A DNA stretch of 64,000 nucleotides, taken from positions 1,054,001 through 1,118,000 of the forward strand of contig NZ_AP023354.1 of NCBI RefSeq assembly GCF_018324685.1, read 5' to 3'. Source of the stretch: Actinocatenispora sera (GTDB taxonomy: Bacteria > Actinomycetota > Actinomycetes > Mycobacteriales > Micromonosporaceae). Shown here in pieces: positions 52,891 through 61,606 of the stretch (position 1 is its first letter; the number at the start of each line of letters is the position of its first letter). A model generated the notes under the pieces. It saw only the letters and a program-made list of their open reading frames with translations, was not told the origin of the DNA and ran no database searches. The position numbers and the translations under genes are program-made.

Positions 52891-53985
52891 TCAGGCGCCG
52901 GCGACGGTGGCGGGGCCGGCGACCCGGTTCCGGCGGGCCCGGACCGCGTCGGCCAGCCGGTGCAGCACCGGTACGGTCGACTCCCAGCCCAGGCACGCGT
53001 CGGTGACGCTCTGCCCGTAGGTGAGCTCGCCGGAGCCGCCCTCGATGCCGAGCGACTGCTTCCCGTCCACCAGGAAGCTCTCCAGCATCACGCCGACGAT
53101 GCCGCGCTGGCCGGCCGCCAGCTGGCCGGCGATGTCCGCGGCGACCAGCGGTTGGCGGGTGTGGTCCTTGCCGCTGTTGCCGTGCGAGCAGTCGACGATC
53201 ACCCGCTCCGGCAGCCGCGCCTCGCGCAGCTGAGCCAGCGCCGCGCCGACCGGCTCGGCGGCGTAGTTCGGGCCGGACCGGCCGCCGCGCAGGATGACGT
53301 GGCAGTCCGGGTTGCCGGCCGTCTGCATGATCGCCGCCACGCCGTGTTCGGTCACGCCCGGGAACACGTGCGGTACCGCCGCGGCCCGCACCGCGTCGAT
53401 CGCCACCCCGACGCCCCCGTCGGTACCGTTCTTGATCCCGATCGGCATCGACAGGCCGGACGCGAGCTGCCGGTGCACCTGGCTCTCCGCGGTCCGGGCG
53501 CCGATCGCGCCCCAGCTCACCGTGTCCGCGAGGTACTGCGGCAGGATCGGGTCGAGGTACTCGCAGCCCACCGGCAGGCCGAGCGCGCCGATGTCCAGCA
53601 GCAGCCGCCGGCCGATCCGCAGCCCCTCGTTCGCCTCGAAGGAGCCGTCCAGCCGCGGGTCGTTGAGCAGGCCCTTCCAGCCGACCACGGTGCGCGGCTT
53701 CTCGAAGTACACCCGCATCACGATCGCCAGGTCGTCGCGCAGCTCGCCGGCCGCGCCGGCCAGCCGCCGGGCGTACTCCAGCGCGGCCGCCGGGTCGTGC
53801 ACCGAGCACGGGCCGACGATCACCAGCAGCCGGTCGTCGGCACCGGACAGCACGTCGGTCACGGCGCGCCGGCCGGCCCGTACGGTGGCGGCGACGGGTT
53901 CGGTGATCGGCAGCTCCTCGGCGAGCAACGCCGGTTGCACCAGCGGGCGGACCGAGGCGATGCGGCGATCGCGGAGCGGTTCCAT
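52891..53985 (-). CDS. aroF: Class I DAHP synthase (3-deoxy-7-phosphoheptulonate synthase)
   Basis: A 364-aa enzyme of the AroF/G/H class. It joins phosphoenolpyruvate and erythrose 4-phosphate, the first step of aromatic amino acid synthesis. Family signatures are GPCSVHDPAAALEYARRL, MRVYFEKPRTVVGWKGLLND, GARTAESQVHRQLASGLSMP, GIKNGTDG, VIVDCSHGNSGKDHTRQP and GGSGELTYGQSVTDAC. This is the E. coli-type class, whereas many actinobacteria rely on class II enzymes, so this may be a second, regulated copy. The 182-bp region before it (53986-54168) carries a leader peptide with Tyr, Trp and Phe and a terminator hairpin, indicating attenuation. Confidence 0.93.
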   Translation of the reverse strand: MEPLRDRRIASVRPLVQPALLAEELPITEPVAATVRAGRRAVTDVLSGADDRLLVIVGPCSVHDPAAALEYARRLAGAAGELRDDLAIVMRVYFEKPRTVVGWKGLLNDPRLDGSFEANEGLRIGRRLLLDIGALGLPVGCEYLDPILPQYLADTVSWGAIGARTAESQVHRQLASGLSMPIGIKNGTDGGVGVAIDAVRAAAVPHVFPGVTEHGVAAIMQTAGNPDCHVILRGGRSGPNYAAEPVGAALAQLREARLPERVIVDCSHGNSGKDHTRQPLVAADIAGQLAAGQRGIVGVMLESFLVDGKQSLGIEGGSGELTYGQSVTDACLGWESTVPVLHRLADAVRARRNRVAGPATVAGA

Positions 53986-54046
53986 GTACTGACCTTTCCG
54001 CAGGCCGCACGCGGTCCCATCCGGCCGGCCTGCTGCGGGAAACAGG

Positions 54047-54073
54047 AAAGGCAGGGGAGAATCCCCTGCCTTT
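54047..54073 (-). terminator. Attenuator hairpin before the DAHP synthase gene
   Basis: On the minus strand, AAAGGCAGGGGA-TTC-TCCCCTGCCTTT makes a perfect 12-bp stem with a 3-nt loop, followed by CCTGTTT. It lies between the leader peptide stop (54100) and the gene start (53985). Segment 54074-54088 abuts its 5' arm and can pair with 54125-54139 in the leader (13 Watson-Crick pairs plus one G-U over 15), or with 54017-54029 downstream. Confidence 0.82.
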
Positions 54074-54099
54074 GCCGGCTCTGGATGGTTGTCGAGGCG

Positions 54100-54168
54100 T
54101 CAGTGCACGGTGGCCCGCCCGACCCCACCCAGGGCCGGCGATGTAAACCACCGATACAGACGCGTCAC
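54100..54168 (-). CDS. Aromatic amino acid leader peptide (22 aa)
   Basis: GTG 54168 to TGA 54100-54102 encodes a 22-residue peptide starting MTRLYRWFTSPALGG. Tyr5, Trp7 and Phe8 cluster within four codons, an arrangement expected of a leader that senses aromatic aminoacyl-tRNA supply. Tyr and Phe are written TAT and TTT, codons rare in this GC-rich genome, where TAC and TTC dominate. The peptide lies 115 bp before the DAHP synthase ATG, with a terminator hairpin between. The ribosome site is weak (GGTAGAG about 9 nt upstream). Confidence 0.75.
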   Translation of the reverse strand: MTRLYRWFTSPALGGVGRATVH

Positions 54169-54191
54169 GACGGCGACTCTACCAGCAGCCC

Positions 54192-54668
54192 TCAGCGCTG
54201 CCGGGGGATGTTCCGGCCCGGCGCGTGCCGGCGCGCGGCCAGCTCGTCGGTGCCGGCGGCGAAGGTACGGCCGAACACGCTCACCAGGTGCCCGAGCTGC
54301 TGCCGGTGCGGTGCCCGGACCCACAGGTGGTGCCGGTCACCGTCGACGGCGAACCGCAGGTCGAGCAGCCCGATCCGGTCCCGCGGCGTCCAGTCGATCT
54401 CTGCCAGTTCGGTCAGATCCGCGCTGATCAGCGGCCGAACCCGGTCGAACAGCCGGCTCTGCCGGGTGACCACCAGCCGCCGCCGGGTCAGCAGCAGGAC
54501 CAGCCCGGCGTTGATGAAACGGTTCGGGTCGACGCACTGCGCGACCGCGAGCGTCGTGTCGTGCCGCCCGACGTCACGCCGGAACACCGGTACGTGCCGG
54601 CTGACGGTCAACGTGTCCAGGCCGGCATCGGCCGCGGCGGGCAGCAGGGAGAGCGAGAACGTGTCCAT
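54192..54668 (-). CDS. Hypothetical PH-like protein
   Basis: A 158-aa soluble protein, largely beta strands: FINAGLVLLLTRRRLVVTRQ, ADLTELAEIDWTPRDRIGLL, DLRFAVDGDRHHLWVRAPHR and a C-terminal helix (QQLGHLVSVFGRTFAAG). The layout resembles bacterial PH/YvbH-like domains, but the match is by eye. It lies upstream of the leader peptide on the same strand, 23 bp apart. Its transcript could run into the aro leader unless a promoter lies at the gene's end. Confidence 0.5.
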   Translation of the reverse strand: MDTFSLSLLPAAADAGLDTLTVSRHVPVFRRDVGRHDTTLAVAQCVDPNRFINAGLVLLLTRRRLVVTRQSRLFDRVRPLISADLTELAEIDWTPRDRIGLLDLRFAVDGDRHHLWVRAPHRQQLGHLVSVFGRTFAAGTDELAARRHAPGRNIPRQR

Positions 54669-57065: not shown

Positions 57066-57191
57066 ATGTCACGCATGCCGGAAACATACCGTCGTTACCG
57101 ATATCAGCTCCACACTGGGGTGGAAACCGCGGACGTGCTCTGGCGTGTGCGTTGTGGCCCGGTTGGTCGATCGGGCACCCTTGAGCCGTGA
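57066..57191 (+). CDS. 41-aa small ORF coupled to the GTPase gene
   Basis: ATG 57066 is preceded by GGAGGGG (57055-57061) at ideal spacing. The frame runs 41 codons to TGA 57189-57191, overlapping the GTG start of the GTPase gene (57188) in GTGA. The peptide opens MSRMPETYRRYRYQ and holds a later DVLWRVRC. The GTPase gene itself has no ribosome site, so ribosomes finishing this ORF probably restart there. The peptide may be a regulator or only a coupling leader; no family is recognised. Confidence 0.55.
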   Translation: MSRMPETYRRYRYQLHTGVETADVLWRVRCGPVGRSGTLEP

Positions 57192-60100
57192 CGACGCAGC
57201 GAGACAGCGGCGTCGCGCCAGCCGGGGGGCGACGGTTCACCGAGACAGGTCGGCAGCCTGACGAGCCAGGCGACAACCGCCCGACGGACACCACGGAACC
57301 GACCGGTTCCACGCATCGACCGTACCCACCCGAGCCGGCGCGCGCCGAGCGCCGGGAACCGACGGAGCACCATGCCCCGCCGGCCGCCCCGGACGACCTC
57401 GGTAACCAGGTGCTCGGCGAGGCGCTGCAGCAACTGCGGACCGCCGTCGCCGGCGCCCGGTTCAGCCTGGCCACGGCCGGCGCCGCGGAGGCCCGGCAGC
57501 TGGCCCGGCGGCTCGCCGGCACGCTCGACGACTACCTGTCCCCGCGGCTCGCCGAACTGGCCGGGCCACTGCTCGTCGTCGTCTGCGGCCCCACCGGCGC
57601 AGGCAAGTCGACGCTGGTCAACAGCCTGGTCCGAGCGCCGGTCAGCCAGGCCGGCGTGCTCCGGCCGACCACCCGGGCGCCGGTCCTGGTGGCCAACCCG
57701 GCGGACGCGTCCTGGTTCGGCCGGCCGCGGCTGCTCGCCACCTTCGCCCGCACCGGCGGTACCCCGCCGCAGGGCCGGCACCTGCAGGTGGTGGCCGCCC
57801 CCGCGCTGCCGCCCGGGCTGGCGCTGCTGGACGCGCCGGACATCGACTCGGTCGCCGCGGACAACCGGGAGCTGGCCGACGAACTGATGGGCGCCGCGGA
57901 CGCCTGGCTGTTCGTCACCACCGCCAACCGCTACGCGGACGAGACGCCCTGGCAGCTGCTGCGCACCGCCCGCGACCGCAACGCCGGACTCGCCGTCGTC
58001 CTGGACCGGATGCCGGTCGGCGAGGCCCGCCGGATCCGCAGCCACCTCAGCCGGCTGCTGGCCGAGGACGGGCTGGCCGACGTGCCACTGTTCGAGCTGG
58101 CCGAGTCCGCCATGGACCACGAGCGGCTGCTGCCCGCCGAACAGGTCGCCGCGCTGCGCGACTGGCTCGAACGGCTCGCCGCCGACGGCGCCGCTCGCGC
58201 CGCGGTCGCCCGGCAGACCCTGGACGGCGCGATCGCCACCCTGCCGGCGAAGCTCGCCGAGTTGACCACCGAACTCGCCGCGCAGCACCGCGAGTCCGAC
58301 GCGCTGCGCGCCGAGGTGCGTACCGCACACGCCCACGCGCTGTCCACAGTGGACGATGCGGTCCGGGGCGGCGGACTGCTCGGCGGCGAGCTCGCCGCCC
58401 GATGGCAGGAGCTGGTCGGCGGCGGCGAGCTGGTCCGCGCCGTACAGTCCCGCTCCGGGCGGCTGCGCGACCAGCTGCTGGTCTCGCTGGCCGGACGCGC
58501 TCTGCCCGGCCGGCAGTTCGTCCCGGCAGCCAGGGCGGCCCTGCACAGCCTGGTCGACGAGACGCTCGCCGACTCGGCCCGCCGGATCGCCGATGCCTGG
58601 CAGCGCGGCCCGGCCGGCACCGCACTACTGTCCGATGTGGACAGCTACACCGGGCCGGACCTGGTCGGACAGTGGTTCGACGATCTGGACGAGTGGATCC
58701 GGACCGACGACGGGCAACGCTCGGTGGCCCGCCAGACCGAGTACACGATCGCCGCGGTACGGCTGCTCGTGCTGGTCGCGGTGCTCGTCGCGCCGGCGCG
58801 CACCGATGCCACCGGCTCCGAGCGCGCCATGCTCGACACCGTCCTCGCCGACCCGGTGGTACGGCGCATCGCCGGTACCGCCCGGGACGCGCTGGTCGGC
58901 CGGCTCCGCGAGCTCGCCGACCAGCAGCGCCGGCGGTACGACGCCGCGCTCAACCGGGTCGCGGTGGACGACACCGCGGTGGTTGCGCTGAGTACCGCGG
59001 CCGCGGCGCTGGTGCCGGCCCGTACCGCGGCCGCGCTGGTCACCGAGCGCCGCTCGCTGCCACCGGCGACACCGCCCGTACCCCCGGCGTCGGCACCGAC
59101 GACCGGCCCGCTCCCCGGCCCGGACAGTCCGCTGTTCCACCCGGCGACCGAGTCCACCGGTACTGACGGGGTCGCCCCGGCCGCCGCCGGGTCCATCGAC
59201 ACCGGTACCGGGGCCGCCGAGTCCACCAGCACCGCGACGACCCGACCCACCGACCCAAGGGCGATCGAACTCACCGGCACCGACGGGCCCACCGACACCG
59301 AGCCTGTCGAGTTCACCAGCACCGAGACGACCGGACTCACCGACAGGGAAACGGTCGGACCCACCGCCACCGAAGCTGTCGAGTCCACTCACACCGAGGC
59401 GACCGGACCCTCCGACAGGGGAACGGTCGAGCAGACCGACACCGACGGGCCCGCGAGCACCGAGTCCGCCGAGTCCACCGGCGCCGAAGCGAACGGAGTC
59501 CCCGGCGCCGAGGAGACCGAGACCCCGCGCACCGAGGAGGTCCGAACCGGCGGCGCCGGAACGGCGCCCGACGCCACCACCGATCGTGCCGGCGCCACCC
59601 CACCGGCAGCCGGCGCCGCGGCTGCGCCGGACGCTGCCGCACCCGTCGATGCGGGACCGGGCGGTACGGCACCGGGCGACGAGGTACCGGGCGACGGGGT
59701 ACCGGGCGACGCGGTACTGGGCGACGCAGTACCGGGCGAGACCGCCTCGGGCGAGCCCACATCCATCGACGCCGGCTTCGCCGAACCCGCCCCGTCCGGC
59801 GCCGGGTCGATCGAGGCGGGTGCCGCCACGGCAGCCGGCGGCGCGATCGATGACGGTACAACGGACCGAGCCGTCGCCGACCCGACGGCGGACGCCTCGG
59901 GTCCGGCGAGCCCGGCGGCGGTAGGCGAGGGTACGGCCGAGACCACCGAGGCGACGACCGAGGCCGGGGCGGAATCCGTCCCGCCGCTGGACGACGCCGT
60001 ATCGCCGGACGAAGGCGCCTCCGGCCCTGCGTCGGAACATGCCGAGGCCGCGCCGGCCGACGCCGCACCGGGCCACACCGACAGCGAGCAGAGCGAGTCC

Positions 60101-61606
60101 GACAGCGAGCAGGGGCGGTCCGTCCGCCAGTCGGGTACCGACACGGAACCCCGTGCGGACGCCCGCGAGCAGCGGCAGGACGGGACCGAGTCGCTGCACG
60201 CCGCGGCCACGGTCGCGGCGGCCCGGGCCGGCGGCGAGTCGACCGGCCCCGACGCCACCGAGCCGGCCCCAGGCGACACGACACCAGGCGCCGCACCGAC
60301 CGGCGAACCAACGACCGACGGCCGTGCCGCGCCGATCGACCACATCGCGGCGCCCACGGCCAGCGACCCGACCGAGGACGGGGCGAGCGGCCCCGCGGCC
60401 GAACCAGTCCCTGGCGTACCGGCGAACGTCGAGGCCACTGGCCCCGGCAGCACGACGAACAACGAGGCCAGTGCCGCAGGCAGCACGACGAACAACGAGG
60501 CCAGTGCCGCAGGCAGCACGACCAACGACGAGGGCACCGAACCGGCCCCCGACGACGTGACGAACGAGCACGTCACCGGACCGGACAACGACGTCACCAT
60601 GCCCGACGTGGCTGGAGAGAGCGGCGATGCGGCGACCGGGCCGATCGACGACATCGCGACATCCCCGGCCAGCGAGCCACGCGAGGACGCGGCGAATGAG
60701 GACGCGACCGGGCCGGCCCATGGGTTCGCGATGCCCGAGGCTGCGGCCGAGGGGACGAGCGGAGGCGGTACCGAGGGGCTGGGCGCCGAGACGACGTCCG
60801 GCCTCGGGGATTCGATCGACGCCGAGGCGACGGACGGGGCACCCGGCGGCAAGACGACGGCCAAGGCCCGCGGCAAGGCGACGGACCGGGCACCCGGCAG
60901 CAAGACGACGGCCAGGGCCGGCGGCAAGACGACGGCCAGGGCCGGCGGCAAGACGACGAACAAGGCCGACGGCAAGACGACCGACAGGGCCGGAAGCACG
61001 GCGACGGGCACGGCGGGCGGCAAGACGACGAACAAGGCCGACAGCAAGACGACCGACAGGGCCGGAAGCACGGCGACGGGCACGGCGGGCGGCAAGACGA
61101 CGAACAAGGCCGACAGCAAGACGACCGACAAGGCCGACGGCAAGGCGACGGACAAGGCCGACAGCAAGACGACGAACAAGGCCGACAGCAAGACGACCGA
61201 CAAGGCCGACGGCAAGGCGACGGACAAGGCCGACAGCAAGACGACGAACAAGGCCGACAGCAAGACGACCGACAAGGCCGACGGCAAGACGACGGACAAG
61301 GCCGACAGCAAGACGACGGGCACGGCGGGCGGCAGGACGAGGGACGGGCAACCCGGCGGCAAGACGACGGACAGGGCCCCCGAGGACGCGCTTGGCGACG
61401 ACGACGCGGAGGGTACGGACGGCACGGGCGCGGGGGACGGCGACGCCGGGCCGAGCGGCGCAACGGATGGCGCGACCCCCGGCGAGCGGCCGGCCACCGA
61501 CGACGAGACCGCGACGGGCGGCGGGCGGGTGGCCGAGGACGGGCGTACCGACCGGGCGGGCGTAGCGGACGAGACCACCGACGGCACCGGCCAGGAGGAC
61601 ACGTGA
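57188..61606 (+). CDS. Dynamin-like/AAA-type GTPase with a ~850-residue disordered tail
   Basis: A 1472-aa protein. Residues about 75-620 hold a GTPase: G1 [17 protein letters not shown] (about 131-147), G3-like [10 protein letters not shown] (about 213-222), G4-like VVLDRMP in place of NKxD, and helical regions ([20 protein letters not shown] is a hydrophobic helix). From about residue 620 on, the protein is a low-complexity Thr/Glu/Ala/Asp/Gly/Pro tail ending in Lys-rich KADSKTTD repeats. The C-terminus GTGQEDT meets the next GTPase gene by a GTGA overlap. Paired GTPases of this type occur in actinobacteria; their role, perhaps membrane or ribosome related, is not known. Confidence 0.75.
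60840..61365. repeat. Lys-rich tandem repeats in the GTPase tail
   Basis: About 24-bp units encoding [24 protein letters not shown] alternate over this stretch, preceded by longer units containing GGKTT and [11 protein letters not shown]. The copies are nearly identical at DNA level, so the number likely varies by slippage. A separate 33-bp repeat ([11 protein letters not shown]) occurs 2-3 times at about 60448-60535. Confidence 0.9.

Follow-up and report, generated by a model that had tools for sequence, protein, structure and literature searches.

The DNA analyzed here is a 64,000-nt stretch of Actinocatenispora sera contig NZ_AP023354.1, called the window below. On its minus strand a short leader ORF sits directly 5' of a class I DAHP synthase gene (Table 1). 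A genome-wide search for PF00793 hits no gene but this one at E ≤ 0.001, and DAHP synthase matches of class I and class II each occur once in the genome. Elements A and C can pair as the leader helix P, which covers the remaining part of the leader ORF and reaches right up to the terminator-like hairpin T, with no gap between them. Element D, located between T and the gene, is the alternative partner of C.

Table 1. Features of the class I DAHP synthase locus (window positions)
Feature	Position	Strand	Remark
-10-like box TAGAGT	54181-54176	(-)	7 nt 5' of the leader GTG; read from the sequence
Leader ORF, MTRLYRWFTSPALGGVGRATVH	54168-54100	(-)	GTG start, 22 codons + TGA
Presumed sensor codons TAT CGG TGG TTT	54156-54145	(-)	Tyr-Arg-Trp-Phe, codons 5-8
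Tyr5 (TAT)	54156-54154	(-)	Arg6 lies between Tyr5 and Trp7
Trp7 (TGG)	54150-54148	(-)
Phe8 (TTT)	54147-54145	(-)
Element A	54139-54125	(-)	5' strand of leader hairpin P; starts 5 nt past the last aromatic codon
Element C	54088-54074	(-)	3' strand of P; alternative partner D
Hairpin T	54073-54047	(-)	Perfect 12-bp terminator-like hairpin, 3-nt loop; gap of 0 to C
Element D	54029-54017	(-)	Near copy of A; C:D pairing would enclose T
GGAAAGG	53999-53993	(-)	Shine-Dalgarno-like sequence of the DAHP synthase gene
Class I (aroFGH type) 3-deoxy-7-phosphoheptulonate synthase gene	53985-52891	(-)	364 aa; ATG at 53985

A first-pass annotation of the window had called an attenuator here, with a 22-codon ORF carrying Tyr5, Trp7 and Phe8 and a perfect 12-bp hairpin ahead of the class I gene. 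Both agree with the sequence at the positions in Table 1. The annotation described TAT and TTT as rare, which is borne out by 7 of 233 Tyr codons and 8 of 242 Phe codons in the 29 long ORFs of the window. The two competing pairings that it drew for element C were also recovered against dinucleotide shuffles (A:C, z = -4.1; C:D, in two blocks, z = -2.7). Its remark that the paired segment adjoins the terminator arm and does not overlap it is correct (C ends at 54074, T starts at 54073) and matters for the mechanism.

The U tract of T in the window is poor: TTT lies inside the stem and is followed by CCTGTTTCCC (also given as CCUGUUUCCC). This explains why a consensus scan of 53850-54400 listed no terminator; the scan listed no sigma-70 promoter either (no -35 match). 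In many relatives, four or more T follow the T stem. A search of Rfam 15 with the window stretch and 20 related loci gave no match near the gathering score. Just 5' of the -10-like box lies a 158-aa ORF (54192-54668, minus strand) without Pfam or NCBIfam match at E ≤ 0.001. Elsewhere in the window, a 1472-aa ORF (57188-61606, plus strand) has a P-loop motif (GPTGAGKST) near its start and a long low-complexity, repeat-bearing tail.

Leader peptides at actinobacterial DAHP synthase loci

We collected 167 upstream regions of class I DAHP synthase genes: 21 from named actinobacterial contigs, 63 from a set with a class I match in 219 of 250 genomes (the window's own locus is counted here), 76 from a set with a match in 78 of 394 genomes (G369, at a contig end, was left out) and seven from a third set with a match in seven of 31 genomes. 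Three named actinobacterial loci that lack a leader by the filter (L017, L027, L061) were added afterwards, for a total of 170. The automatic filter passed 135 loci, two of which (L154 and L167) look like tails of another gene and were removed. An aromatic-cluster leader was therefore found at 133 of 170 loci. The 133 leaders comprise 125 distinct ORF sequences and the loci are thus not independent. Another seven loci (L024, L142, L146, L175, L187, L217 and L229) failed the filter, show an aromatic codon cluster by eye and were not counted; in L024 the frame of the cluster has no nearby stop. None of the 22 class I genes fetched from the f19 family (of 23 found) has a leader by the filter, and these make up 22 of the 34 loci not counted among the 167. 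Five loci (L226-L228, L230 and L231) are referred to as Corynebacterium-like, a genus inferred from the FYF leader and an aroF start resembling the primer in PMC7356990.

Tyr, Trp and Phe codons occur together in 116 of 133 leaders (109 of the 125 distinct sequences). The remaining clusters contain Phe and Tyr only (15/133) or Trp and Tyr only (2/133). The alignment of relatives that the first-pass annotation had proposed as a check thus came out in its favor, since the aromatic codons and both hairpins recur. A short leader ORF rich in codons for the end products of the pathway, as in trp-type attenuators, is found at these loci. The codon choice within the clusters is strongly skewed. Across the 133 leaders, Tyr is encoded by TAT 146 times and by TAC six times (n = 152) and Phe by TTT 140 times and by TTC 21 times (n = 161), compared with TAT in 1 of 353 Tyr codons and TTT in 4 of 397 Phe codons in 69 pooled class I DAHP synthase genes. 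In the genes compared (window ORFs and DAHP synthase genes) the two codons account for 0.3 to 3.3% of Tyr or Phe codons. The A motif also keeps its distance to the last aromatic codon, which is 5 nt in 112 of 133 loci; four Corynebacterium-like loci were scored at 8 nt where the filter fell one codon short, and the spacing from their final Phe codon is 5 nt.

A TANNNT box lies 6 to 8 nt 5' of an in-frame leader start in 129 of 133 loci (exactly 7 nt in 100), compared with 0.6% at random upstream positions; this null is somewhat lenient, as it draws a single random position whereas any of several in-frame starts could score in the test. The four loci without the box are Corynebacterium-like. 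Between T and the gene, TANNNT was found in only one of 115 loci. The box position and its near absence downstream of T suggest that T probably lies within the transcription unit and that the transcript is probably leaderless, starting at or next to the leader GTG, where translation would begin as well. Transcription starting downstream of the hairpin, which the annotation had named as fatal to its proposal, is therefore not what the sequences indicate.

Covariance searches and chorismate mutase leaders

A covariance model, R2, was built from 26 leaders, 25 of them from outside the window's family; the exception, L051, is presumably a Catellatospora and so within it. In the 7.04-Mb genome, R2 matches the window site with E = 9.9e-7 and nothing else at E ≤ 0.01 (E-values of the R1- and R2-type models are rough). 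Model R1 gave a match in 50 of 101 genomes of the family, with a single match in each except G092, where two were found alongside two class I matches. R2, run on 296 genomes of the class, matched 46. It finds the aroF leader in one of six Corynebacterium-like genomes (9.9e-6), and in six genomes whose leaders lack T it found none of the aroF sites.

Some genomes matched by R2 have no class I match at E ≤ 1e-80, and 12 such regions were taken for inspection. In 11 of the 12 an AroQ-type chorismate mutase gene lies downstream (L303-L312 and L314), in ten of the 11 joined to a decayed DAHP-synthase-like domain. Four of the eleven genes were run against Pfam and NCBIfam and the others were judged by sequence likeness; one of the four Pfam-tested genes gave a DAHP synthase match under the Pfam cut-off. 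The R2 match in G421 (L313) was rejected as a leader, as no aromatic leader was seen there. Ten f19 genomes with a leader before chorismate mutase have no class I match at E ≤ 1e-80.

The chorismate mutase leaders (e.g., MNRSFAFIEPAPGSRS and MDRRYFGFTPPAPDEPVGAP) contain Phe or Phe plus Tyr, and all 11 are without Trp; where alternative starts exist, the codon 7 nt after the TANNNT box was taken as the start. Trp is present in 118 of 133 DAHP synthase leaders and in none of the 11 chorismate mutase leaders (Fisher p = 8e-10, overstated in that ten of the eleven come from one family). The TAT preference is absent from the chorismate mutase leaders, in which Tyr is TAC in six of eight cases. The pathway to every aromatic amino acid begins with DAHP synthase, and chorismate mutase feeds Phe and Tyr only. 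The codon content of the leader thus matches the product range of the enzyme downstream. We also looked ahead of trpE-like genes at 17 related loci for a Trp leader (W-W or W-x-W) and found none within 520 nt; the placement of two of them (L242 and L243) is uncertain, the locus being cut by a contig end.

Predicted adjoining hairpins before the gene

Unguided consensus folding placed P next to T both in an alignment of 34 Micromonosporaceae-type leaders (A1) and in an alignment of 26 others (A2). T shows two-sided base changes in both alignments. In A2 the outer P pairs also show two-sided changes (C-G to U-A in five, G-C to A-U in four). In A1 the outer six P pairs are invariant within Micromonosporaceae, and two inner pairs show two-sided changes. 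Against dinucleotide shuffles, the A:C pairing reached p ≤ 0.05 in 103 of 133 loci (Micromonosporaceae type 44/65, mycobacterial type 18/18, f22 18/18, Corynebacterium-like 5/5, other 8/9 and loci without T 10/18). The C:D pairing did so in 83 of 133 (54/65, 7/18, 9/18, 0/5, 5/9 and 8/18 in the same order). The 18 loci without T (L002-L005, L008-L011, L014, L018, L117, L118, L120, L122, L135, L191, L218 and L221) belong to Nocardia, Rhodococcus, Amycolatopsis, Pseudonocardia and similar genera, in which the leader, P and often C:D are seen without a clear U-tract terminator.

The 3' end of the outer P helix falls between -2 and +4 nt from the first T pair in 105 of 115 loci, and a second measure of the gap puts 93 of 113 within range. 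Outliers include wrong terminator calls and loci scored on the inner helix block, the window among them: its automatic gap of 7 arises from the inner block being the longest unbroken helix, and its outer block GCCGGC ends at 54074. P takes none of the T 5' arm in 87 of 113 loci, 1 to 2 nt in 23 and 6 nt in three (L219, L220 and L223). Leader segments complementary to the T arm reached p ≤ 0.05 in seven of 115 loci, which is the chance rate (mean z near 0), whereas the same test gave z of -4.1 to -4.8 for three proteobacterial DAHP synthase leaders.

Among 46 class I loci from other phyla, ten have an aromatic leader and a terminator by the filter, and in nine of the ten the leader helix (typically CTGGCGG:CCGCCAG) lies inside T. 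These leaders, from Burkholderia, Caballeronia, Xanthomonas, Dyella and relatives, resemble the window in having an aromatic-rich leader before a class I DAHP synthase gene and a terminator, and differ in the classical overlap of the leader helix with the terminator arm. Examples of their peptides are FYFYFFW and FYFWYYGF (L052, L059, L066, L072, L073, L077, L078, L079 and L081). An antiterminator sharing a strand with the terminator hairpin is thus seen in the proteobacterial controls and was not found in the window or, above chance, in the actinobacterial leaders. For the same enzyme, the sequences point to overlapping attenuators in those Proteobacteria and abutting ones in Actinobacteria. 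The literature searched held no description of DAHP synthase leaders in those proteobacterial genera.

Folding with and without a stalled ribosome was another check proposed by the first-pass annotation. T forms in each modelled position: by partition-function folding its pair probability in the window is near 1 without a ribosome, with a stall on Tyr, Trp or Phe, and with a ribosome at the stop codon. Element D can form its pairing only once T has been passed, and C:D may serve a function later on, in transcripts already extended beyond it.

Possible regulation and relation to known leaders

The aroR leader of the C. glutamicum aroF operon is said to have been described by Neshat et al. in 2014. 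In the accessible text of PMC11802643, Phe limitation raises aroF operon transcription and Tyr availability has no effect on it, despite a Tyr codon in aroR; C. glutamicum sRNA work lists the aroF leader with Phe-Tyr-Phe (PMC4046766). aroR resembles the window in the enzyme, the leader peptide with aromatic codons and, very likely, attenuation. The five Corynebacterium-like loci share with the window the 5-nt spacing to A, the A:C helix (5/5) and a terminator beside C. They differ in C:D pairing, which is above chance in Micromonosporaceae-type loci and not in theirs. In codon content, aroR has Phe-Tyr-Phe without a Tyr response, whereas the window and most relatives carry Tyr, Trp and Phe.

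Attenuation at this locus is very likely. Our favored reading, for which we see about as much chance of being right as wrong, is a ribosome-mediated attenuator of the aroR-aroF kind (a family defined here from the window and five inferred-Corynebacterium loci) with codons for all three aromatic amino acids. Codon conservation, rare-codon choice, the Trp-less chorismate mutase leaders, the predicted folding of P and T and the -10-like box argue for it at the sequence level. The exact switch is what we infer from these features. With enough charged tRNA, the ribosome would run through the ORF and unwind P, leaving C single-stranded; T would then form and transcription would stop. A shortage of Tyr-, Trp- or Phe-tRNA would stall the ribosome at the cluster codons, and P would form ahead of it. 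The end of P at the base of T might then sterically keep the lower T stem from closing in the RNA exit channel, and polymerase would read on into the DAHP synthase gene. P would act as an antiterminator that abuts T and does not overlap it, relieving termination without base competition. The direction of this switch (stall = on) is taken from the behavior of C. glutamicum aroR in the accessible text of PMC11802643, and with this direction P must lower termination at T without competing for its bases. We propose that a long helix and a closing T stem cannot share the exit channel, which would explain the kept P-T gap. Exit-channel blocking also predicts constitutive read-through when the leader is not translated.

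This reading is least certain in two places, the blocking of T by the end of P and the idea that the Tyr, Trp and Phe codons each sense, which is suggested by their conservation. The first-pass annotation had suggested that a single leader reads all three aromatic amino acids, and the codon set is indeed kept in 116 of 133 leaders and matched to the products. The Tyr part of that suggestion is weakened by aroR, where Tyr availability has no effect according to the accessible text of PMC11802643, so that a cluster codon may be present without serving as a sensor. Several points count against the favored reading. In the folding model, T forms regardless of where the ribosome is. T in the window has a poor U tract and was not listed by the consensus scan. 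If the ribosome stalled with its A site on the last (Phe) codon, it would cover approximately the first 4 nt of A, and such a footprint would shorten P exactly where P meets T. P is predicted even without a ribosome, so the model needs read-through when the leader is untranslated. In the sequences compared, the outer six P pairs never vary within Micromonosporaceae. A broader proposal, which we advance tentatively and with more doubt than belief, is that the abutting antiterminator represents a class of attenuators in which the ribosome-controlled helix shares no base with the terminator and prevents its closure by bulk at the RNA exit channel. In Actinobacteria it would be the usual sensor of aromatic amino acids, and ahead of chorismate mutase it would recur with the Trp codon dropped. 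Termination would need leader translation, the opposite of trp.

The same flush arrangement of P and T could be read the other way round, with P and T together forming the termination state, as helices 1:2 plus 3:4 do in E. coli trp. A stall would mask the first A bases and open P, and T would lose a support such as coaxial stacking. A starts only 5 nt past the last aromatic codon in 112 of 133 loci and could be partly masked by a stalled ribosome, but with the ribosome held up at the Tyr or Trp codon, P would stay almost intact. T alone forms with a probability near 1 in the window, and with the leader/T-arm match not above chance, an opened P offers no antiterminator. A comparable arrangement is that of ilvB-II of Corynebacterium, in which a uORF spans P1 and is followed by terminator stem P2; its accessible description reports in vitro folding, covariation, attenuation and an antiterminator marked by the authors (PMC10272879). 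ilvB-II is like the window in the uORF-spanning hairpin followed by a terminator stem, in covariation and, very likely, in attenuation, and differs in serving branched-chain amino acids and another gene, the two being compared by text description. On balance we regard this alternative as rather unlikely.

Control of translation is less probable still, and we consider it a doubtful candidate. P would free D to pair near the ribosome binding site, C:D would leave that region to fold over the Shine-Dalgarno sequence, and T would be a constitutive partial terminator. A and D do compete for C (C:D at p ≤ 0.05 in 83/133), and the 18 loci without a clear T keep A:C in ten and C:D in eight. In 80 of 133 loci, a modelled stall at the first aromatic codon made the Shine-Dalgarno sequence cheaper to open by more than 0.3 kcal/mol, but the direction was reversed in 37, strongly so in the window, and a stall at the last aromatic codon gave little or a reversed clade-mean effect in the largest clades. 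C:D is at 0/5 in the Corynebacterium-like loci. aroR has been termed a translational regulatory leader peptide (PMC7356990, accessible text). A cascade down to the Shine-Dalgarno sequence, which looks attractive by eye in Nocardia and mycobacteria, was rejected as the main reading: helices closing over that sequence reached p ≤ 0.05 in 9 of 133 loci, not above chance, and the window goes in the opposite direction. It is kept here as a rival.

A classical attenuator, with a leader segment that pairs with the 5' arm of T and prevents T, is disfavored and in our view very improbable. This layout holds for the nine of ten filtered leaders from other phyla (Burkholderia, Xanthomonas and relatives) and could be accommodated at the three actinobacterial loci with a 6-nt overlap. 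It was rejected for Actinobacteria on the chance-level complementarity (7/115, against the three proteobacterial controls) and on P taking 0 to 2 nt of the arm in 110 of 113 loci. A reading of T as an ordinary leaky terminator or a site of RNA processing, behind a leader ORF without regulatory function, would suit the poor U tract of the window, but is hardly credible given the codon choice, the enzyme-matched codon set, the kept spacing and the covariation.

Trp-type attenuators, such as E. coli trpL, share with the window a leader peptide, cognate codons and a terminator, and differ in sensing one amino acid and in the strand shared by antiterminator and terminator. The trp leaders of Streptomyces and Corynebacterium are of this type (PMC1262725, accessible text). 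In Acholeplasma, uORF control has been proposed for uORFC-13-1 before aroF, a motif immediately 5' of a terminator stem with a U run coding for Phe, found in Acholeplasma and environmental sequences only (PMC8632094, accessible text). By description alone it is like the window in the enzyme, the uORF and the position next to a terminator; the Phe-coding U run and the restricted distribution set it apart. In the accessible parts of two surveys, Seliverstov 2005 found no conserved RNA element for phenylalanine/tyrosine genes in Actinobacteria (PMC1262725), and the eight leaders listed for S. lividans include none for DAHP synthase (PMC8079986). The accessible text of the aroR descriptions (PMC11802643, PMC4046766 and PMC7356990) makes no mention of the abutting P/T geometry. 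The literature searched, partly accessible and with few subscription papers, held no description of the aromatic leader outside Corynebacterium or of its chorismate mutase version.

It was concluded that an aromatic leader known in one genus is spread over several actinobacterial families and has a geometry that is not the classical one. New are its breadth, the three-amino-acid codon set, the match of codons to pathway and a helix without a strand shared with T. A codon set for three products, kept against a synonymous bias of approximately 97 to 99% and following the reach of the enzyme, provides a compact natural case for studying the evolution of multi-amino-acid sensing. The abutting geometry is of mechanistic interest, and actinomycetes that make antibiotics may use the element to adjust their precursor supply.
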